DNA of 64,000 bases, taken from NCBI RefSeq assembly GCF_003287935.1, contig NZ_CP030287.1:7820869-7884868 (forward strand), written 5' to 3'. Under the pieces are notes generated by a model. It worked only from the letters and a program-made list of their open reading frames with translations, searched no databases and was not told the DNA's origin. A program made the translations under genes and the position numbers. This stretch comes from Streptomyces sp. ICC1 (GTDB lineage Bacteria > Actinomycetota > Actinomycetes > Streptomycetales > Streptomycetaceae). Below are positions 11,722-46,948 of this stretch, in pieces. Positions within the stretch are counted from its first letter, which is position 1. Each line of letters opens with the position of its first letter.

Positions 11722-11938
11722 GGACCGCCTAATCCTGCCGCCGACCGGAAACCGCATCCGACTATTCACGCGCGCGGCAGGAGCGGGGGAACCAGGTAAG
11801 CCGCTGTTCCGGATCTCCGTCGAGATCTTTACAACGGGACAGCTCGGGGTGAAGCCGTACATGTGCTGTTCGCCGGCACGTGGGCGGCCGGACATCTCCA
11901 GTCCGAACCCGACAGCTCACCTCGCAGGCGTCGGAGAG
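11722..11938 (+). ncRNA. ydaO/yuaA c-di-AMP riboswitch
   Basis: The leader contains the conserved blocks of actinobacterial ydaO elements in order: accgcctaatcctgccgccg, gcggcaggagcgggggaacc, cggggtgaagccgt and gaacccgacagctcacctcg followed by caggcgtcggagagga. It ends about 10 bases before the ATG of an M23 peptidase with LysM. In Streptomyces the same RNA controls cell-wall hydrolase genes, where c-di-AMP binding promotes termination and so lowers expression. Bases 11,438-11,721 upstream hold the promoter region and nothing else that I recognise. Confidence 0.92.
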
Positions 11939-11948
11939 GAAATTCGCC

Positions 11949-36291: not shown

Positions 36292-37959
36292 TCACTGGTA
36301 GACGCGCACGTAGTCGACGAGCATCCGCGCGGGGAACGGCGTGGTGGCGTCGGTCGGGCCGGGCCAGTCACCGCCGACCGCGAGGTTGAGGATCATGTAC
36401 GACGGGTGGTCGAAGACCCAGGGGCCGCGGGTGCGCTCCACCTGCTCCTTGTCGAGGGTGAAGACGGTCCGCCCGTCGAGGCTGTAGACGATCCCCTTGC
36501 TGTTCCAGTCGGCGGCCCAGACGTGGAAGTCGTCGGAGAAGTCGGCGTCCTGGGGCAGCCTGTACGGGCCGCCGATCCCGCCTCCGCCGTTGTAGGCGGG
36601 CGCGTGGACGGTGGAGTACGAGGTCTTCACGTCCTTGCCGAGGACCTCCATGATGTCGATCTCGCCGTTGTACGGCCACGGCCGGCCGGTCAGGAAGTCG
36701 CCCCCCATCATCCAGAACGCGGGCCACAGCCCGTTGCCCTTGGGCACCTTGATCCGGGCCTCGACGCGCCCGTAGGTGAACTGGAACGTCGCCCCGGTGT
36801 TCATCCGGGCCGAGGTGTACTGGCAGGTGGTGCTGCCGGTCAGCGGATCGGGCGGGCAGCCCTTGCCGGGCGTGGCCTCCTTCCGCGCCTCCATGACGAG
36901 GTGGCCGGCCCCGTCCGTCGCGGCGTTCTGGTGGTCGGTGTAGTACTCCAGCTCGCCGTTCTGCCCGGTGCCCGGGTCGGCCCTCCACTTGGCGGCGTCG
37001 GGCTTGCCCGCCACGGGACCGTCGAACTCGTCGCTCCACACCAGCCGCGGCGGGTTCGCGGGGTCCGGCGGGAGCGGCGGGGGAGTCACGGGCGCGCCTC
37101 CGGTGCCGTGGACCTGGAACTCCCACAGGGAGTAGCCGTACGGGGTGGCCCGCTCGGTGCCGTACATCCGCACGTACCGGCCCGTGCCGGAGACGGCCAG
37201 GGTCTGCTTGAAGCCGGTGCCCGCCGTCGTGGAGTACACCGGCGTCCAGGCGTTCCCGTCCGGGGAGACCTGGATCTGGAAGGACTTGGCGTAGGCCGGA
37301 TCCCACTGGAGGACGACCTTGCGGATCTGCGCGGGCGCCCCGAGGTCGACGGATATCCAGCCCGGATCCGTCCAGCCCGTGGCGGGGCTCGTCGCCCAAC
37401 GGGACGCCGGATCACGGTCGAAGGCCCTGGCCGGGGTGCACTCCCAGCAGTTCCCGTCGGCCTGCGAGGAGGAGGCCGCGCCCGCCTTGCCGTACGACAG
37501 GAGCACGTCCCCGCCACCGTCCCCGCCGCCGGGGGTGCCGAACACCTGGAACTCCCAGAGGGAGTAGCCGTATCCGGTGGCCCGCTGGGTTCCGTACATC
37601 CGCACGTGGCGGCCGGTCCCGGAGACGGTCAGGTGCTGGATGCCGCCGGGGCCGGCGGTCGTCCCGTAGACGGTGGTCCAGTGGGCCGCGTCGTCCGAGA
37701 CCTGGATCTGGAACGCCTTCCCGTACGCGGCCTCCCAGTTGAGGGAGACCCGGCTGATCACCGCGGTGGCACCCAGGTCGACCTGGATCCACTGGGGGTC
37801 CGCGAAGGCGCTGGACCAGCGGGTGCCGGCGTTCCCGTCGACGGCGCTGCCGGGGCTGTGGCCGGGCTCGCTGCCCGACACGGTGACGGACTTGCCCTGC
37901 GACAGCAGGGTTTCGGCGGCGCGGGCGGGAGAGGCGGGGAGGCCGTCTCTTATCCTCAT
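36292..37959 (-). CDS. GH16 beta-glucanase with two discoidin-type domains, 5' end damaged
   Basis: The readable protein has two F5/8-type (CBM32-like) domains (ETLLSQGKSVTVSGSEPGHS onward and VLLSYGKAGAASSSQADGNC onward) and a C-terminal GH16 domain with the catalytic motif GEIDIMEV and WPAFWMMGG, expected to cut beta-1,3 or mixed glucans. The start is unreliable: LPASPARAAETLL is the end of a signal peptide, but the hydrophobic core and start codon are replaced by adapter-like sequence (37943-37976). The ATG at 37959 lies inside that sequence. Confidence 0.8.
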   Translation of the reverse strand: MRIRDGLPASPARAAETLLSQGKSVTVSGSEPGHSPGSAVDGNAGTRWSSAFADPQWIQVDLGATAVISRVSLNWEAAYGKAFQIQVSDDAAHWTTVYGTTAGPGGIQHLTVSGTGRHVRMYGTQRATGYGYSLWEFQVFGTPGGGDGGGDVLLSYGKAGAASSSQADGNCWECTPARAFDRDPASRWATSPATGWTDPGWISVDLGAPAQIRKVVLQWDPAYAKSFQIQVSPDGNAWTPVYSTTAGTGFKQTLAVSGTGRYVRMYGTERATPYGYSLWEFQVHGTGGAPVTPPPLPPDPANPPRLVWSDEFDGPVAGKPDAAKWRADPGTGQNGELEYYTDHQNAATDGAGHLVMEARKEATPGKGCPPDPLTGSTTCQYTSARMNTGATFQFTYGRVEARIKVPKGNGLWPAFWMMGGDFLTGRPWPYNGEIDIMEVLGKDVKTSYSTVHAPAYNGGGGIGGPYRLPQDADFSDDFHVWAADWNSKGIVYSLDGRTVFTLDKEQVERTRGPWVFDHPSYMILNLAVGGDWPGPTDATTPFPARMLVDYVRVYQ

Positions 37960-37976
37960 CTCCGAGACCACGAGAC
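37943..37976. other. sequence resembling an Illumina Nextera adapter
   Basis: About 30 of 34 bases match the Nextera read-2 transposase adapter as I remember it; the last part reads tctccgagaccacgagac where the adapter has tctccgagcccacgagac. On the plus strand it translates SYPHLRDHE, close to SYTHLRAHE, which appears in many database proteins through adapter carry-over. It sits precisely where the GH16 signal peptide is cut and directly against the stop codon of the next gene. It is probably an assembly join, not biology. Confidence 0.7.
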
Positions 37977-38755
37977 TAGCGGAGACGTTCCTCCACCGCC
38001 GAGTTGTACGCCGCCACCAGCGCCCGCCGGGCAACCCGTTCCACCGGCCGCAAAGCCTCCGCCCGCGCCGCCATCTCCGACGCGGCCACCGCCGCCCCGT
38101 GCCCCCGCTCGTTCGCCAGCGACACCATCAGGTCCACCCGCTGCGCCAGCGCCAGCACCCGTACCGCCCGCGCCGGATACCCCGGCGCCAGCGCGTCCCG
38201 CCCGGCCTCCGTCCGCGCCCGGTACGCGGACAGCGCCGCCTCCGCCACCGGCCCGGACCCCGCCACGTCCAGCCGGGTCAGTACCACCGCCGCCTCGCGC
38301 AGCGCCTCCGCCAGCTCCCGTTCCGCCTCGCCGAGCGACGGCACGTCCGCCGGCGGTGCCTCCCGTACCGGCAGGCAGTGCCAGGTCACCGAGACGTGGA
38401 CGTCCCCGGCGGGTCCGGCCTCGTGGACCTCGGGCACCAGCCCCACCGCCGCGCCCACCGCCACGACCGCTTCCTCGGCGTCCAGCGCCCGCGCGTTGAA
38501 CTCCGGCGGCCCGCTCAGTCCCAGCGGATGCCCCGGCGCGGGCAGCGCGATCCGCAGACCGCTCACCCCCAGGGCGCGCAGCCGGCCCAGCGCGAGCGTG
38601 AGCCCGACCGGTCCGGATTCCCCCGGCAGCCCCTCCACGCGGTGCACGGCGTCCTCGCCCACGATCGACAACACGGCCTCGTCGGGCGAGACGAGACCGG
38701 CCAGCAGAGCGTTCCCCCAGGCGGCGAGCCGCCCTGAACGTGGTTCGAAAAGCAT
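37976..38755 (-). CDS. conserved hypothetical protein, 259 aa
   Basis: A soluble 259-residue protein (MLFEPRSGRLAAWGNALLAG ... ALVAAYNSAVEERLR) with an alternating alpha/beta start (RALGVSGLRIALPAPGHPLG) and a long helical C-terminal half. No known motif is seen. It diverges from an ABC ATPase gene, a pairing that I believe is common in Streptomyces. The TAG stop is immediately followed by the adapter-like sequence, so its 3' neighbourhood may not be real. Confidence 0.75.
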   Translation of the reverse strand: MLFEPRSGRLAAWGNALLAGLVSPDEAVLSIVGEDAVHRVEGLPGESGPVGLTLALGRLRALGVSGLRIALPAPGHPLGLSGPPEFNARALDAEEAVVAVGAAVGLVPEVHEAGPAGDVHVSVTWHCLPVREAPPADVPSLGEAERELAEALREAAVVLTRLDVAGSGPVAEAALSAYRARTEAGRDALAPGYPARAVRVLALAQRVDLMVSLANERGHGAAVAASEMAARAEALRPVERVARRALVAAYNSAVEERLR

Positions 38756-38893
38756 CCCCCCACTTTACGGATCCGCCCTCCGACCCGGGCTGGCGCCCGC
38801 ACCCCTCCCCGAGTGGCGTAGGTTTTCCCCTTGGGGCTGCGCCGACCGGTGGCGCACACACGCACCGAGACTGCAAGGGGAGACAACACGCTC

Positions 38894-39688
38894 ATGAGCG
38901 ATGTTCTGGAGCTGGTGGACGTATCCGTGGTCCGCGAGGGCCGGGCTCTGGTGGACCAGGTCTCCTGGTCGGTCAAGGAGGGGGAGCGCTGGGTGATCCT
39001 CGGCCCCAACGGCGCCGGGAAGACCACCCTGCTCAACGTCGCCTCCAGCTACCTCTTCCCCACCAAGGGCACCGCCACCATCCTCGGCAGCACCCTCGGC
39101 AAGGTGGACGTCTTCGAGCTGCGCCCCCGCATCGGCATCGCCGGCATCGCGATGGCCGACAAGCTCCCCAAGCGCCAGACCGTCCTGCAGACCGTCCTCA
39201 CCGCCGCGTACGGCATGACGGCCACCTGGCAGGAGGAGTACGAGGACATCGACGAGCAGCGCGCCCGCGCCTTCCTCGACCGCCTCGGCATGACGGACTA
39301 CCTCGACCGGAAGTTCGGCACCCTCTCCGAGGGCGAGCGCAAGCGCACCCTGATCGCCCGCGCCCTGATGACCGACCCCGAACTGCTGCTCCTCGACGAG
39401 CCGGCCGCCGGTCTGGACCTCGGCGGCCGCGAAGACCTCGTACGCCGCCTCGGACGGCTCGCCCGCGACCCGCTGGCACCCTCCATGATCATGGTCACGC
39501 ACCACGTCGAGGAGATCGCGCCCGGGTTCACCCACGTCATGATGATCCGTCAGGGCAAGGTCGTCGCCGCCGGTCCCATCGACCTGGAGCTGACCTCCCG
39601 CAACCTCTCCCTCTGCTTCGGGCTGCCGCTCGTCGTCGAGCGCAACGAGAACGACCGTTGGGGCGCCCAGGGCCTGCCCCTGCGCTGA
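38894..39688 (+). CDS. ABC transporter ATP-binding protein
   Basis: A 264-residue stand-alone ABC ATPase with Walker A ILGPNGAGKTTLLN, signature LSEGERKRTLIARAL, Walker B LLLLDEPAAGLDL and H-loop MVTHHVEEI. It resembles the ModF/YlmA-type family of ATPases with no membrane partner encoded beside them. ATG at 38894 follows GGGGAGA. The upstream 138 bases hold its promoter, divergent from the hypothetical gene. The transported substrate, if any, is unknown. Confidence 0.9.
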   Translation: MSDVLELVDVSVVREGRALVDQVSWSVKEGERWVILGPNGAGKTTLLNVASSYLFPTKGTATILGSTLGKVDVFELRPRIGIAGIAMADKLPKRQTVLQTVLTAAYGMTATWQEEYEDIDEQRARAFLDRLGMTDYLDRKFGTLSEGERKRTLIARALMTDPELLLLDEPAAGLDLGGREDLVRRLGRLARDPLAPSMIMVTHHVEEIAPGFTHVMMIRQGKVVAAGPIDLELTSRNLSLCFGLPLVVERNENDRWGAQGLPLR

Positions 39689-39746
39689 GCGGCCCGAGGC
39701 TTCCGCACCCTGTCCGGACCGCACCCACCCGACCTACCATGACCAT

Positions 39747-40178
39747 GTGGACATCGACGCGTGGGTGTGGTGGCTCATCGGGGCGGTCGGACTGGGCATC
39801 CCCCTGGTCCTGACGGCGATGCCCGAGTTCGGCATGTTCGCCGCGGGAGCGGTGGCCGCCGCGATCACGGCGGCCCTCGGCGGGGGAGTGGTCGCCCAGG
39901 TCCTGGTCTTCGTGATCGTCTCGATCGCGCTCCTCGCGGTCGTCCGGCCGATCGCCAACCGGCACCGCAACCAGAAACCCCAGCACCGCAGCGGCATCGA
40001 CGCGTTGAGGGGCCGCAGCGCCGTCGTCCTGGAACGGGTCGACGGCAGCGGCGGCGGGCGGATCAAGCTCGCCGGCGAAATCTGGTCGGCCCGCGCCCTC
40101 GACGCGGACAGCAGTTTCGAACCGGGCGAGTCCGTCGACGTGGTGGAGATCGACGGAGCGACCGCGGTCGTCATGTGA
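39747..40178 (+). CDS. NfeD-like membrane protein
   Basis: A 143-residue protein with two or three hydrophobic helices (WVWWLIGAVGLGIPLVLTAM, VLVFVIVSIALLAVV) and a C-terminal OB-fold domain (GRSAVVLERVDGSGGGRIKL, GESVDVVEIDGATAVV). Such short NfeD proteins are encoded beside SPFH proteins, as here (the next gene, 84 bases on), and are thought to help assemble membrane microdomains. GTG at 39747. Confidence 0.9.
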   Translation: MDIDAWVWWLIGAVGLGIPLVLTAMPEFGMFAAGAVAAAITAALGGGVVAQVLVFVIVSIALLAVVRPIANRHRNQKPQHRSGIDALRGRSAVVLERVDGSGGGRIKLAGEIWSARALDADSSFEPGESVDVVEIDGATAVVM

Positions 40179-40262
40179 CAAGCAGAGGACTCGCGGCCCC
40201 GGGGTCTGCGAGACTCCGCTGAACGGGGCAGCACAGACAGCCGGAAGGGCACGGGGAACCGC

Positions 40263-41240
40263 ATGCAACCGATCATCATCGTCCTGATCATTCTGGTGGT
40301 TCTGGTCTTCATCGCACTGGTCAAGACGATCCAGGTGATCCCGCAGGCCAGCGCCGCCATCGTCGAGAGGTTCGGCCGCTACACCCGGACCCTCAACGCG
40401 GGCCTCAACATCGTCGTCCCGTTCATCGACTCGATCCGCAACCGGATCGACCTCCGCGAGCAGGTCGTCCCGTTCCCGCCGCAGCCGGTGATCACCCAGG
40501 ACAACCTGGTCGTCAACATCGACACGGTCATCTACTACCAGGTGACCGACGCCCGCGCCGCGACGTACGAAGTGGCCAGCTACATCCAGGCCATCGAGCA
40601 GCTCACCGTCACCACGCTCCGCAACATCATCGGCGGCATGGACCTCGAGCGGACCCTGACCTCCCGCGAGGAGATCAACGCGGCCCTGCGCGGAGTCCTC
40701 GACGAGGCCACCGGCAAGTGGGGCATCCGCGTCAACCGCGTCGAGCTCAAGGCCATCGAGCCGCCGACTTCCATCCAGGACTCGATGGAGAAGCAGATGC
40801 GCGCCGACCGCGACAAGCGCGCCGCGATCCTCCAGGCCGAAGGTGTCCGCCAGTCCGAAATCCTGCGCGCCGAGGGCGAGAAGCAGTCCTCGATCCTGCG
40901 CGCCGAGGGTGACGCCAAGGCCGCCGCCCTGCGCGCCGAGGGCGAGGCGCAGGCCATCCGTACGGTCTTCGAGTCCATCCACGCCGGCGACGCCGACCAG
41001 AAGCTGCTCGCCTACCAGTACCTCCAGATGCTCCCGAAGCTCGCCGAGGGCGACGCCAACAAGCTCTGGATCGTCCCGAGCGAGATCGGCGACGCCCTCA
41101 AGGGCCTCTCCGGCGCCATGGGCAACTTCGGTCCGATGGGCCCGGGTTCGGGCTTCAACCCGGGCGGTTCCGGCAAGGACGCCGGCCCGGCGGCCGACAA
41201 GGCCGCCGCGGAGCGCCGCGAGCAGCCCCCCATCGACTGA
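40263..41240 (+). CDS. SPFH/band 7 protein (QmcA-like)
   Basis: A 325-residue protein with one N-terminal membrane helix (IIIVLIILVVLVFIALVKTI), an SPFH domain (SAAIVERFGRYTRTLNAGLN, VVNIDTVIYYQVTDARAA) and an Ala/Glu-rich coiled-coil built on repeats of LRAEGEK/LRAEGDA, then a Gly-rich tail. These proteins form ring-like scaffolds in the membrane and protect membrane proteins from proteolysis. It follows the NfeD gene, its usual partner. Confidence 0.93.
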   Translation: MQPIIIVLIILVVLVFIALVKTIQVIPQASAAIVERFGRYTRTLNAGLNIVVPFIDSIRNRIDLREQVVPFPPQPVITQDNLVVNIDTVIYYQVTDARAATYEVASYIQAIEQLTVTTLRNIIGGMDLERTLTSREEINAALRGVLDEATGKWGIRVNRVELKAIEPPTSIQDSMEKQMRADRDKRAAILQAEGVRQSEILRAEGEKQSSILRAEGDAKAAALRAEGEAQAIRTVFESIHAGDADQKLLAYQYLQMLPKLAEGDANKLWIVPSEIGDALKGLSGAMGNFGPMGPGSGFNPGGSGKDAGPAADKAAAERREQPPID

Positions 41241-41323
41241 ACGGCCCGCTCCTGCTGCATGATCAGTGAGGCCCCTCGACCTTCATGGCGGGGAGGCGAC
41301 TCACCCACGCAAAGGGGACGGCC

Positions 41324-42109
41324 TTGCCCTCCTTCTCGATGTCCCTCTGGGAAGCGCTCGCGGTCCTCGCCGCGGGCGTCGGCGCCGGAGCGATCAACAC
41401 CATCGTCGGCTCCGGCACCCTGATCACCTTCCCGGTGCTGCTGGCCACCGGTCTGCCGCCGGTCACCGCCAACGTGTCCAACACCCTGGGCCTCGTGCCC
41501 GGTTCGCTCAGCGGAGCCTTCGGCTACCGCAAGGAGCTGCGCGGCCAGCGCGCCCGCGTCCTGCGGCTCGGCGCCGTCTCGCTCGTCGGCGGACTCGCGG
41601 GCGCCGTCCTGCTCCTGACCCTGCCGTCGGACTCCTTCGACACGATCGTGCCCGTCCTCATCGGACTGGCCCTCGTCCTCGTCGTCCTCCAGCCCCGCCT
41701 CGCCGCGATCCTGCGCAGGCGCCAGGAAGCGGCGGGCGGCGACCCGGGCCACCCGGACGGCGGACCGGCCCTGCTCACGGGGATGCTGCTCTCCAGCGCG
41801 TACGGAGGCTACTTCGGCGCCGCCCAGGGCGTGCTCTACCTCGGCCTCATGGGCCTGCTGCTCCGCGACGACATCCAGCGGATCAACGCGGTGAAGAACG
41901 TCGTCGCCGCGATGGTGAACGGCATCGCGGCCGTCTTCTTCCTCTTCGTCGCCGAGTTCGACTGGACGGCGGTCCTGCTCATCGCCGTCGGCTCCACCAT
42001 CGGCGGCCAGATCGGGGCCAAGGTCGGCCGCCGCCTCCCGCCCACCGTCCTGCGCGGGGTCATCGTGACCGTCGGGATCATCGCGATCGTCCAACTGCTG
42101 CTCCGCTGA
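41324..42109 (+). CDS. TauE/SafE-type sulfite/anion exporter
   Basis: A 261-residue polytopic protein with eight hydrophobic segments and the TauE/SafE repeats GAGAINTIVGSGTLITFPVL and GMLLSSAYGGYFGAAQGVLY. The family moves sulfite, sulfonates or other small anions. TTG at 41324 is chosen because AAAGGGGAC sits 6 bases upstream; ATG at 41339 or 41285 are alternatives without a good site. It stands alone downstream of the SPFH gene. Confidence 0.85.
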   Translation: MPSFSMSLWEALAVLAAGVGAGAINTIVGSGTLITFPVLLATGLPPVTANVSNTLGLVPGSLSGAFGYRKELRGQRARVLRLGAVSLVGGLAGAVLLLTLPSDSFDTIVPVLIGLALVLVVLQPRLAAILRRRQEAAGGDPGHPDGGPALLTGMLLSSAYGGYFGAAQGVLYLGLMGLLLRDDIQRINAVKNVVAAMVNGIAAVFFLFVAEFDWTAVLLIAVGSTIGGQIGAKVGRRLPPTVLRGVIVTVGIIAIVQLLLR

Positions 42110-42187
42110 GCGACGTAGAAAACGTACGCCGCCCAGCGCGAGCGTCCAGCCGACAGGACGAACCGGCCCTACGCGATCACGCGCGGC

Positions 42188-42691
42188 CTAAGCGGAACGC
42201 TCCAGCCACTCCGGCAACACGTCCCGCCCGCCCACCCCCAGCGCGAGCAGCATGGCGTCCGCCGGAGAGGGCACGAAGGGCTTGCGCAGCAGGGGCATCC
42301 CGGCTTCCTCCGGAGTCCGGGCCGCCTTGCGGTGGTTGTCCTCGGAGCAGGAGGCCACCGTGTTCAGCCACGTGTCCCCGCCGCCCTGCGCCCGTGGCAG
42401 CACGTGGTCCACGGTCGTCGCGCGCTTCCCGCAGTACGCGCACCGGTGCTGGTCCCGGATCAACACCCCCCTCCGTGACCAGGGAGCATGTCTTCGGAAG
42501 GGCACCCGGACGTACCTGCAGAGTCTGATCACCCGCGGCATCGGAAGATCCATCGTGGCCGCGCGCACACGGAGCTCGGGATGCGACTGTTCGACCACGG
42601 CCTTGTCCTGGAGCACCAGGACGACAGCCCGGTTCAGGGTCACCGTCGACAGCGGCTCGAAGCTCGCGTTCAGCACCAGCGTGTCCCGCAT
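42188..42691 (-). CDS. HNH endonuclease-domain protein
   Basis: A 167-residue protein with a C-terminal HNH domain: HRCAYCGKRATTVDHVLPRA then NTVASCSEDNHRKAARTPEE. The two CxxC-like pairs bind zinc and DHVLPRAQGGGDTWLN is the active-site loop. The N-terminal half (TLVLNASFEPLSTVTLNRAV) is the conserved leader of this widespread actinobacterial family. ATG at 42691 follows GGGAGGTGGG. The housekeeping role is unknown; it is not linked to a restriction system here. Confidence 0.88.
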   Translation of the reverse strand: MRDTLVLNASFEPLSTVTLNRAVVLVLQDKAVVEQSHPELRVRAATMDLPMPRVIRLCRYVRVPFRRHAPWSRRGVLIRDQHRCAYCGKRATTVDHVLPRAQGGGDTWLNTVASCSEDNHRKAARTPEEAGMPLLRKPFVPSPADAMLLALGVGGRDVLPEWLERSA

Positions 42692-42787
42692 CTCGCCCAC
42701 CTCCCGTGTGCAGGCCCGCGACCACCCCGGCGGCAGGGCCCGCAACCACTCTGGCCGCGCGCGCCACGCGGGACAACGCAATAAAAA

Positions 42788-42824
42788 TGCCCGGTCCTGG
42801 CCGTCTTTAGACCAGGACCGGGCA
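42788..42824 (-). terminator. intrinsic terminator of the YbhB gene
   Basis: A 13-bp stem (42788-42800 with 42812-42824) and 11-base loop are followed, on the minus strand, by TTTTTAT. It ends the leftward YbhB transcript. This is one of the few U-tract terminators in the window. Confidence 0.87.
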
Positions 42825-42852
42825 AACGCTCGGAGAACGAAAGGCGCGAGGA

Positions 42853-43386
42853 TCAGCCCGCGGGAGCCTCGTACTCACCGATCAGCTGCGCCCGCCCCAG
42901 CGTGTGGAAGCGCAGATTGAATCCGATGGCGGCCGCCGACGCGTCGGCGCCGGGCCCCAGCTTCTCCGTATCCACCGCGTAGACGGTGAACACGTACCGG
43001 TGCCGCTCCCCGGCGGGAGGCGCCGCCCCGCCGAAGTCCTTGGTGCCGTAGTCGTTGCGCACGTGCACCGCCCCGGCCGGCAGCCCCTCGAACTTCCCGC
43101 TGCCCGCCCCGGCCGGCAGTCCGGTGACCGAGACCGGGAGATCGAAGAGCACCCAGTGCCAGAACCCGCTGCCCGTCGGGGCGTCCGGGTCGAAGCACGT
43201 CACGGCGAAGCTCCGCGTCCCCTCGGGGAAGCCCTCCCACCGCAGCTCGGGCGAGACGTTCCCGCCCGACAGCACCTGGGCGTCGCCCAGATCGGCCCCG
43301 GGCTCCAGGTCCGCGCTGCTCACGGCGAACTCGTGCACCGGGGGATGGAAATCGTGGGGGAGCGGCGCCCTGCTCTGCTCGGCCAC
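42853..43386 (-). CDS. YbhB/YbcL (PEBP, Raf-kinase-inhibitor-like) protein
   Basis: A 177-residue soluble PEBP-fold protein. The ligand-pocket motifs are present: GGNVSPELRWEGFPEGTRSF, TCFDPDAPTGSGFWHWVLFD and RNDYGTKDFGGAAPPAGERH. The bacterial role is not settled; proposed functions are small-ligand binding. It is monocistronic, with its own terminator, and about 60 bases from the Spo0M gene. Confidence 0.92.
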   Translation of the reverse strand: MAEQSRAPLPHDFHPPVHEFAVSSADLEPGADLGDAQVLSGGNVSPELRWEGFPEGTRSFAVTCFDPDAPTGSGFWHWVLFDLPVSVTGLPAGAGSGKFEGLPAGAVHVRNDYGTKDFGGAAPPAGERHRYVFTVYAVDTEKLGPGADASAAAIGFNLRFHTLGRAQLIGEYEAPAG

Positions 43387-43449
43387 TGCTGAACCTCCTG
43401 CTGAATCGCGTCTTCGCCTACCCGTGTCCAGGCCCGAGCCTAGATCCGC

Positions 43450-44232
43450 TCAGAGCCAGTTGCGCTGCGAACCCACCGAGGCGATCCACTGGTTCAGGTA
43501 CGCCGCCCAGTCCGTCTCCTGGTACGACTGCAGCCCCACCTGGAAGCAGCGGTAGGTGTCGCTGCCCTCGCTGAACAGGCCCGGCTTCTTGTCCATCTCC
43601 AGGATGACGTCCATCTCGCGGCCGTCGGAGACGAAGGTCAGCTCGACCTGGTTCAGCCCCCGGTACTGGGACGGCGGGACGAACTCGATCTCCTGGTAGA
43701 AGGGCAGCGTCTGCCGCGTCCCGCGGATGTGCCCGCGCTCCATGTCCGCACTGCGGAAGGAGAAGCCCAGCTGCGCGAAGGCGTCGAGGATCGCCTGCTG
43801 CGCCGGCACCGGGTGCACGTTGATCGCGTCGAGGTCGCCGGCGTCCACCGCGCGCGCGATCTCCAGCTCCGTGCTGACCCCGATGTTCATCCCGTGCAGG
43901 TGGCGGCCGCCGAAGTGGGTGATCGGCGTCTCCCACGGGATCTCCAGCCCGAAGGGCACCACGTGCAGGGCGCCCGGCTGCACCTGGAACGCACCGCCGA
44001 GGCGCTGCTTGGTGAAGACCACGTCCTGCTTGTACTCCTGGTCGCCGCCCTCCACCTCCACCCGCGCCTGGAGCCCGACGGACAGCCCCTCGATCTGCTG
44101 CTCCACGGACCCGCCCTGGATCCGCACCTCGCCCTGGACGATCCCGCCCGGCACGACGTTCGGCTCGGTGATGACGGTGTCGACCGACGCACCGCCTGCA
44201 CCCAGGCTCGCGAACAGCTTCCTGAACCCCAT
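43450..44232 (-). CDS. Spo0M family protein
   Basis: A 260-residue arrestin-fold protein related to Bacillus SpoOM, a regulator of sporulation and cell shape. It begins MGFRKLFASLGAGGASVDTV, with the beta-sandwich motif VPGGIVQGEVRIQGGSVEQQ and later LGFSFRSADMERGHIRGTRQ and LPFYQEIEFVPPSQYRGLNQ. Full-length and typical. In Streptomyces it may influence development, but this is inference from the family. Confidence 0.9.
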   Translation of the reverse strand: MGFRKLFASLGAGGASVDTVITEPNVVPGGIVQGEVRIQGGSVEQQIEGLSVGLQARVEVEGGDQEYKQDVVFTKQRLGGAFQVQPGALHVVPFGLEIPWETPITHFGGRHLHGMNIGVSTELEIARAVDAGDLDAINVHPVPAQQAILDAFAQLGFSFRSADMERGHIRGTRQTLPFYQEIEFVPPSQYRGLNQVELTFVSDGREMDVILEMDKKPGLFSEGSDTYRCFQVGLQSYQETDWAAYLNQWIASVGSQRNWL

Positions 44233-44377
44233 GCTCTGACTCCCCTTGAAGACGTGCTGTGAAGACGTGCTGGAAGACCTGCTCGCAGACGTGTGCGACC
44301 ACGCGCAGGACTACCCCTACAAACGCGGAACCTTAGGCCCCGGTTGCAGCCGCGCCCAGTCCACTACGCTCGACCGG

Positions 44378-45019
44378 ATGAGCGCGCGCCCCGACCGTAC
44401 GCCCCTGCCCAGGACCTTCTTCGACCGCCCGGTCCTCACCGTGGCCCCGGACCTCCTGGGCCGCACCCTGGTCCGCCGCACCCCGGAAGGCCCGCTGGAA
44501 CTGCGCATCACGGAGGTGGAGGCGTACGAGGGGGAGACGGACCCGGGCTCCCACGCCCACCGCGGCCGGACGGCGCGCAACGCGTCGATGTTCGGTCCAC
44601 CCGGACACGCGTACGTCTACTTCATCTACGGCATGTGGTTCAGCCTCAACTTGGTGTGCGGCCCGCCCGGCCACGCGAGCGGGGTCCTGATCCGCGCGGG
44701 GGAGGTGACGCTGGGCGCCGAGCTGGCCCGTAAACGGCGGATTTCAGCCAGAAGTGACCGGGAACTGGCCAAAGGTCCGGCCCGTCTGGCCACCGCCCTC
44801 GATGTCGACCGCTCCCTCGACGGCGTCGACCTCTGCGCGGGCCCGGATGCACCCCTCTCCCTGCTCGCGGGCACGCGGACCGCGCCCGACCAGGTGAGCA
44901 ACGGCCCCCGCACCGGAGTGGGCGGCGCCGGCGCGGCCCACCTCTACCGCTACTGGATCACCCACGACCCGACCGTGAGCCCGTACCGGGCCCACGCGCC
45001 GCGCCGCCGCCCGACTTGA
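44378..45019 (+). CDS. 3-methyladenine DNA glycosylase (AAG/MPG type)
   Basis: A 213-residue base-excision-repair enzyme of the AAG family. It contains [20 protein letters not shown] (catalytic Glu) and [20 protein letters not shown], followed by [20 protein letters not shown], the DNA-intercalating and base-pocket regions. ATG at 44378. It removes alkylated purines. The gene is followed by the rRNA-leader-like region and has no terminator that I can see. Confidence 0.93.
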
Positions 45020-45231
45020 CTCGGCGTCGGCGGGCGCCTAACGTGGCCCGAGCCGCTTGAACGGGGCACTGCCATCAGCAGACCCCCAGAGCGACCAACC
45101 CACTACCTACGACTTACCCCTGGCGGGGTCTTATTCGGCATGTCCGAATTCGATTCCAAGCGGCCGATTATGAGCCGCAAGGGATAAGCGCTAATGTGGT
45201 GGAGCGCCGAAAGGCACAGACCCCCAACGGT

Positions 45232-45440
45232 CACCGAATTCAAATCCGAGAGTCGGAAACGACACGGAAATGATCTGGTAGAGTTGGAAACGAAGGAAGC
45301 GCCCGGAGGGCCTGGAAACAGGAACAAAGGAAGCGTCCGTTCCTTGAGAACTCAACAGCGTGCCAAAAATCAACGCCAAAAAGTTGATACCCCGTCCATT
45401 TCGGTGGATGAGGTTCCTTTGAAAAAGACCTGTGAGGTCG
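45232..45440 (+). promoter_or_regulatory. rRNA-operon-like promoter and leader without 16S rRNA
   Basis: The stretch carries the recognisable Streptomyces rrn upstream pattern: a TAGAGT -10 box at 45279-45284 followed by TTGGAAACG, then aaaggaagcgtccgttcctt, tccttgagaactcaacagcg, a caacgccaaaaagttgatac block and gaggttcctttgaaaaag. These leader blocks normally precede 16S rRNA and carry antitermination and processing signals. After about 45,440 the sequence departs from rrn and runs into the 5' end of a secreted-protein gene (45557). No 16S rRNA sequence is present. Bases 45,020-45,231 upstream hold further AT-richer sequence that could contain more rrn-type promoters. Confidence 0.8.
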
Positions 45441-45556
45441 CGGTTCTGCCGGCCGCGCGCCGCTCCACCGGCTTCCCCGGTGCCACCGGCCCCGCCGCCT
45501 CCTCCACCCATTCCAGCTCGTCCAGCCATTCCCGACCGAGGAAGTGAAGTGATCGC

Positions 45557-46948
45557 ATGAGTGTCAAGGACAGCAAGGGGCCCCAGGGAGGGGCAGGTCA
45601 CAAACGCCGGCTCAAGCCCGCGCACAAAGCACTGGCCCTCGTGTCCGCCCTGGTCCTCGGCGGCGGCGCGGTCGTGATCGCCGCCCAGGGCGCGTCCGCC
45701 GGCCAGGACGCGCGCCGGGCACCCGTCACGGCCACCATCGACTGCCCCGACGTGGGGGAGCGGCTGCGCGAAGTGCCCGACCAGGCGCGGCCCGAGGTCG
45801 ACCGGGAACTCGCCGGACTCGACACCCAGATCGCCGACGCCTACGGACGACTGGCCACCGGCCGGGCGCCGGCGGACGCACTGCTCGGGGAGCTGAAGGA
45901 CCAGCGGGGCAAGACGATCACCAAGGTCTCCGACGCGATCGGGCGGGACGCCGCCCGCCCCGACGGCCTGGAGGAGCTGAGCGCCTGCACGATGCAGGAG
46001 GCGTCGGCCGCCGACGGAGACCTCGCCCGCAGCGGCGGAGGCGGCAGCTCGGAAGCCGCGGCGAAGGGCGGACCGGCGCGCTCGGACTTCGTCCCCATCG
46101 GCTCGGTGAAGCCGAACGTGCGCAAGCCCGCGGTCAAGCAGGGCGCGTCCAAGGGCTCCTTCGCCGTGGAGTGCGGCCGCAACGACGAGCGCCACCTCAA
46201 CCCCGACAACGTCATCGTCGCCCCCGGGGTGAGCAACGGAGCCCACCACATGCACGACTACGTCGGCAACAAGACCACGGACGCCTTCTCCACCAACAAC
46301 AGCCTGGCCGCCGCCAAGACCACCTGCACCAACGGCGACCAGTCCACCTACTACTGGCCCGTACTGCGGCTGCGCGACGGCAAGGCCGAGCAGGACGCGG
46401 CCGCGCCCGGCGGCGGGCAGGACGCCAACGTGGGGACCATCCTGCGGCCGAAGAAGGTCACGATCGAGTTCAAGGGCAGCCCCGTCTCCCGGGTCACCGC
46501 CATGCCCCGCTTCCTGCGGATCATCACCGGCGACGCCAAGGCCCTCACCAACGGCCCGGCCAACGCCAACGCCTCCTGGAGCTGCACCGGCTTCGAGAAC
46601 CGTCAGCTGAAGGACAAGTACCCGATCTGCCCCAAGGGGAGCGACGTGGTCCGGACGTTCAACTTCCAGAGCTGCTGGGACGGGAAGAACACCGACAGCG
46701 CCAACCACCGCACCCACGTGGCCTTCGCGGGCCGCGACGGCTCCTGCCCGGCGGGCTTCAAGGCGGTCCCGCAGCTCGTGCAGCGGATCGTCTACACCGT
46801 GGCGCCCGGCGCGCGCTTCGCGGTGGACAGCTTCCCCGAACAGCTGCACAAGCCGGTGACGGACCACGGTGACTTCATCAACGTCATGTCGGACCGGCTG
46901 ATGGCCGACGCGGTGCGCTGCGTCAACGGCGGGCGCGCCTGCCGCTGA
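45557..46948 (+). CDS. secreted DUF1996 protein
   Basis: A 463-residue exported protein with a signal segment (ALALVSALVLGGGAVVIAAQ, ending ASA), a helical region (about 60-150) and a C-terminal DUF1996 domain: FAVECGRNDERHLNPDNVIV, GAHHMHDYVGNKTTDAFSTN, QSCWDGKNTDSANHRTHVAF and SFPEQLHKPVTDHGDFINVM. It is a paralogue of the protein at 34858-36228 but lacks the CBM6 module. It lies directly downstream of an rRNA-type leader, so it may be transcribed strongly from rrn promoters. A strong hairpin follows. Confidence 0.87.
   Translation: MSVKDSKGPQGGAGHKRRLKPAHKALALVSALVLGGGAVVIAAQGASAGQDARRAPVTATIDCPDVGERLREVPDQARPEVDRELAGLDTQIADAYGRLATGRAPADALLGELKDQRGKTITKVSDAIGRDAARPDGLEELSACTMQEASAADGDLARSGGGGSSEAAAKGGPARSDFVPIGSVKPNVRKPAVKQGASKGSFAVECGRNDERHLNPDNVIVAPGVSNGAHHMHDYVGNKTTDAFSTNNSLAAAKTTCTNGDQSTYYWPVLRLRDGKAEQDAAAPGGGQDANVGTILRPKKVTIEFKGSPVSRVTAMPRFLRIITGDAKALTNGPANANASWSCTGFENRQLKDKYPICPKGSDVVRTFNFQSCWDGKNTDSANHRTHVAFAGRDGSCPAGFKAVPQLVQRIVYTVAPGARFAVDSFPEQLHKPVTDHGDFINVMSDRLMADAVRCVNGGRACR

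Follow-up and report, generated by a model that had tools for sequence, protein, structure and literature searches.

An rRNA operon leader ahead of a DUF1996 gene in Streptomyces sp. ICC1 is almost certainly the product of a contig join

In Streptomyces sp. ICC1 the promoter and leader of an rRNA operon (rrn) stand in front of a gene encoding a DUF1996 protein. The window analyzed, that is the whole stretch of 64,000 nt, corresponds to C1:7820869-7884868 of a genome presented as one contig of 9,034,319 bases. With a probability of about 0.98, the leader-DUF1996 arrangement is a seam left when short-read contigs were strung together as a single pseudo-chromosome. Two explanations had been offered by a sequence-only reading. 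The chimeric join is supported by a break point common to several leaders and by a DUF4142 gene split in two, while recombination conferring rRNA-strength, antiterminated transcription found no support. The features of the window are as follows.

11749 to 11945: c-di-AMP riboswitch (RF00379, 62.9 bits), an ordinary feature
37943 to 37976, minus strand: Nextera-like adapter remnant, with a mosaic end at 37943-37961 (3 mismatches)
44378 to 45019, plus strand: mpg, methylpurine-DNA glycosylase (PF02245, E 5.8e-61)
45265 to 45450, plus strand: rrn promoter/leader with TAGAGT at 45279-45284 and the boxA-like core TTGAGAACT, truncated ahead of 16S
45324 to 45450, plus strand: 127-bp block found in each of the genome's eight leaders, identical in seven of them and with a single mismatch in L024
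45450 to 45451, no strand: proposed contig join, placed by the common break, the native neighbors of both halves and the split DUF4142 gene
45451 to 45547, plus strand: detached C-terminal end of a DUF4142 gene, its frame and RPRK-stop matching Streptomyces sp. ISL-43
45557 to 46948, plus strand: DUF1996 protein gene (PF09362, E 2.7e-27)

Positions 45265-45450 do carry a true Streptomyces rrn promoter/leader. The TAGAGT box and the leader blocks tccttgagaactcaacagcg and caacgccaaaaagttgatac, pointed out earlier as rrn signals, are all present as described; only the end of the leader, previously set at 45440, has to be moved, as the rrn-derived part runs to 45450. When window 45020-45560 was used as query against the same genome, the leader aligned to seven other sites (85-100% identity, E 5.4e-66 to 7.1e-61). 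It also aligned to leaders in related genomes, and with both sets it shares the TAGAGT boxes, the leader blocks and the TTGAGAACT core. By similarity, the window copy is an rrn operon leader, and this half of the original claim is real. It differs in what follows: the copy stops before the start of 16S and then gives way to unrelated sequence, and an Rfam search at gathering thresholds found no rRNA gene in the window. Neither the window nor the 28 loci examined (L001-L028) contained N bases, which ruled out masked rRNA as the cause and means that the joins are unmarked.

The genome carries eight rrn leaders versus a single 16S gene (8898187-8899711) and a single 23S gene (8706398-8709520), about 190 kb apart. 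The 5S genes, six above the cut-off and a seventh match that falls short of it, are sited away from both. Only the leader in L028 (one of eight) runs on into 16S. No 23S was found within 5.7 kb downstream of this sole 16S, whose 3' spacer turns into coding-like sequence after about 110 bases, as judged by eye. The remaining seven leaders, the window copy and six others, all break where the 127-bp block ends, at window position 45450. Beyond this point each of the seven enters a different, unrelated sequence, a pattern that marks an assembly join artefact. Leaders at eight places with one 16S could also mean that deletions truly removed most rRNA operons from ICC1, the leaders being left beside whatever lay downstream. 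However, a deletion would keep the operon's own 3' flank, whereas here 5S lies apart from 16S and 23S and the sole 16S has no 23S nearby. Moreover, deletions leave neither adapter sequence nor one identical stop base, and five near-complete relatives carry five to seven 16S copies each. Operon loss in the strain was rejected on account of the scattered 5S, 16S and 23S genes, and we regard it as scarcely credible.

A largest k of 127 is common for SPAdes, and adjoining pieces of its assemblies overlap by k bases. The window leader is identical to the other copies only from 45324 on, and the common end at 45450 is therefore what a graph with k = 127 is expected to give. An exact 127-base overlap also links the 23S piece to two of the 5S pieces, and several 5S pieces to one another. 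From this pattern we infer that a SPAdes-like de Bruijn assembler, run with k = 127, produced contigs that were then concatenated. The mismatch in L024 lies inside the block, and a pure k = 127 graph cannot account for it without later base correction.

Short-read draft assemblies break at collapsed rRNA repeats. ICC1 shares with such drafts the breaks at repeat edges, the one 16S and one 23S present as separate pieces, the exact overlaps of a single length and adapter-like remnants at some piece ends; in draft relatives, contigs likewise end at this leader. Unlike in those drafts, the ICC1 pieces form one contig, in which the joins are unmarked and hidden by concatenation. The single-contig genome behaves as a chain of short-read contigs. 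The left contig would have run from mpg into the rrn operon and halted at the last base that could be assigned ahead of the collapsed rRNA repeat. Its partner on the right would have started inside the DUF4142 tail and continued into DUF1996, and the 16S and 23S repeat pieces would have been placed elsewhere in the same chain.

Adapter-like remnants occur across the genome and at some of the leader joins, though not at 45450. The joins in L023, L024 and L026 (three of the seven 16S-less leaders) begin with sequence resembling the Nextera adapter, as does the stretch at window 37943-37976. A search with the 19-base mosaic end, allowing up to 3 mismatches, gave 162 matches in the genome compared with 1 for the reversed control. 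Matches with at most 2 mismatches numbered 4 in the first Mb and 35 past 8.0 Mb, a skew toward the far end that would fit pieces strung from long to short. For the mosaic end at 37943-37961, 0 matches were expected in 100 shuffles, and window 37943-37976 is a probable second contig join. If so, the left contig would span about 37977-45450. On the minus strand, a glucanase-like ORF (36292-38034) passes through this adapter remnant, and its N-terminus is untrustworthy for that reason.

The neighbors of the left half were examined in relatives. The start codon of mpg at 44378 was picked by eye, the mechanical ORF being 44246-45019. Among 11 mpg loci of relatives, the order mpg, leader, 16S was found in seven, and the other four reach a contig end first. 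These counts rest on the full sense-strand 16S sequence; five of the seven 16S matches cover at least 1,111 bases, one covers 285 bases at 90%, and one covers 120 bases before the contig ends. Judged from this gene order, mpg is the native upstream neighbor of an rrn operon. In the five near-complete relatives, 16S follows all 30 of 30 rrn leaders (seven in G004, six in G005, five in G007, six in G009 and six in G012). This count does not score upstream pieces of these rrn regions as leaders and omits two weak leader-like matches without 16S (G005, G012), which are mobile-element leaders. It also excludes G010, where only two 16S copies were found against five leader matches, with 16S scores of 282 and 443 bits versus about 1,585-1,590 elsewhere.

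On the right, a DUF1996 gene does lie after the leader, as had been stated from the sequence. For comparison, 80 related DUF1996 loci of 183 were kept, several of them short upstream (74 bases in L112, 895 in L114 and 1,304 in L096). In none of the 80 was an rrn leader or 16S found upstream of DUF1996. A relative of the Streptomyces sp. ISL-43 DUF4142 gene (PF13628) is the immediate upstream neighbor in 53 of the 80, one of these being weak (L162, tblastn, 69 residues at 51%). Within the 42 loci listed first the figure is 41, and the lone miss has 74 bases of upstream sequence. In ISL-43, the DUF4142 protein ends in RPRK-stop and DUF1996 begins nine bases later. The window shows the same ending, with RPRK at 45533-45544 and the stop at 45545-45547, and collinearity with ISL-43 begins at 45495. 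In ICC1 the body of the DUF4142 gene is found inside C1:8256874-8258650, at 93% identity to ISL-43; the tail is about 390 kb away in the same assembly. Thus both sides of the join have other native neighbors (mpg-leader-16S in 7 of 11 loci, DUF4142-DUF1996 in 53 of 80): in relatives mpg and the leader go with 16S, and DUF1996 goes with DUF4142, so both halves are parted from their usual partners.

The 39 bases at 45451-45489 match, inverted, a stretch of ISL-43 about 790 bases upstream of DUF1996 (85%) and, in part, C1:8257859-8257894 of the ICC1 genome itself (89%). A contig end that folds back, or a chance match of GC-rich sequence, may be the reason.

The alternative that a real recombination or insertion set the rrn promoter and boxA leader before the DUF4142 tail and DUF1996, giving rRNA-strength, antiterminated transcription, agrees with a leader that as far as 45450 is intact and points the right way, and with the existence of 16S-less leader-like sequences in other Streptomyces mobile DNA. 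Yet such an event leaves unexplained why six more leaders break at the identical base into other sequences, three of those six joins carrying adapter remnants. It also sits poorly with the lack of a leader in any of the 80 DUF1996 loci and with a DUF4142 gene whose body is so far removed from its tail. Regulatory capture by recombination was rejected because six further leaders share the break base, and we consider it highly improbable.

Leader-like sequences without 16S do occur in mobile DNA. The weak matches in G005 and G012 lie away from contig ends. A pattern search of 150 members of the genus Streptomyces found the leader form in seven genomes. In G082 all three matches are about 50 bases or less from a contig end and look like rrn; in the other six genomes, no 16S was present in the 3-kb loci around the leaders (L176, L177, L180, L181, L183, L185). 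The conserved 16S-less form reads CCxGAG ... GGAAGCG ... TTGAGAACT ... ACAG, and in an alignment of 4 rrn and 8 mobile leaders GGAAGCG, TTGAGAACT and ACAG are kept in all 12. Partial leader matches to a 101-base query (E limit 0.01) came from 36 phage and 8 plasmid records of Streptomyces, none covering 80% of the query. One plasmid and one phage were examined. The features of these loci are as follows.

L176, 2292-2362: 16S-less leader
L177, 2894-2960, complement: 16S-less leader
L192, 5001-5060, linear plasmid NZ_CP108537.1: leader match between a divergent GntR gene and a WhiB...DUF2637 run
L191, 661-721, phage Caliburn (Likavirus): leader match ahead of right-end genes
L176, 2400-2525 (G005; L184 1578-1703 is the same place): gntR-DTE RNA, RF02989
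L180, 1578-1703 (G087): gntR-DTE RNA, RF02989

Downstream genes were examined in three genomes. They include an integrase (PF00589, 1.8e-21), Prim-Pol and DUF2637 in G005, a weaker integrase (2.3e-5, below Pfam's cut-off) and an FtsK-like protein in G115, and an FtsK-like protein in G012; by their domains, the genes following the leader in these three are of mobile-element type. In G005 and G087, the Rfam gntR-DTE RNA begins some 40 bases past the rrn-type leader. It is possible, though we put this forward tentatively, that an rRNA-type boxA leader antiterminates non-rrn operons in Streptomyces mobile DNA and that such elements may borrow the host rRNA antitermination machinery for transcribing long operons. 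Titles and abstract openings in the literature on boxA and antitermination in Streptomyces, on gntR-DTE and on assembly contained nothing that we recognized as on point.

Several observations count against a join at 45450/45451. No adapter remnant is present at 45450 itself, L024 carries its mismatch, the first 44 bases past the join (45451-45494) gave no alignment to the ISL-43 DUF4142 tail, and the genome is rated 100% complete (contamination 1.19). In addition, the relatives belong to different species, the highest DUF1996 identity among them being 89%, and for that reason they do not on their own decide against a rearrangement in ICC1. The contig join is nevertheless the reading we favor, at the probability given above.

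In living ICC1, a 16S-23S-5S operon is most likely what this leader drives, and DUF1996 most likely comes after DUF4142. The leader-DUF1996 arrangement of ICC1 has no biological significance of its own; its value is that of a warning. A one-contig genome with a perfect completeness rating seems to hold many unmarked joins. Gene neighborhoods across 45450/45451 and about 37943-37976 in the window are not to be trusted, and gene neighborhoods, fusions and apparent regulatory captures in ICC1 need checking before they are read as biology.
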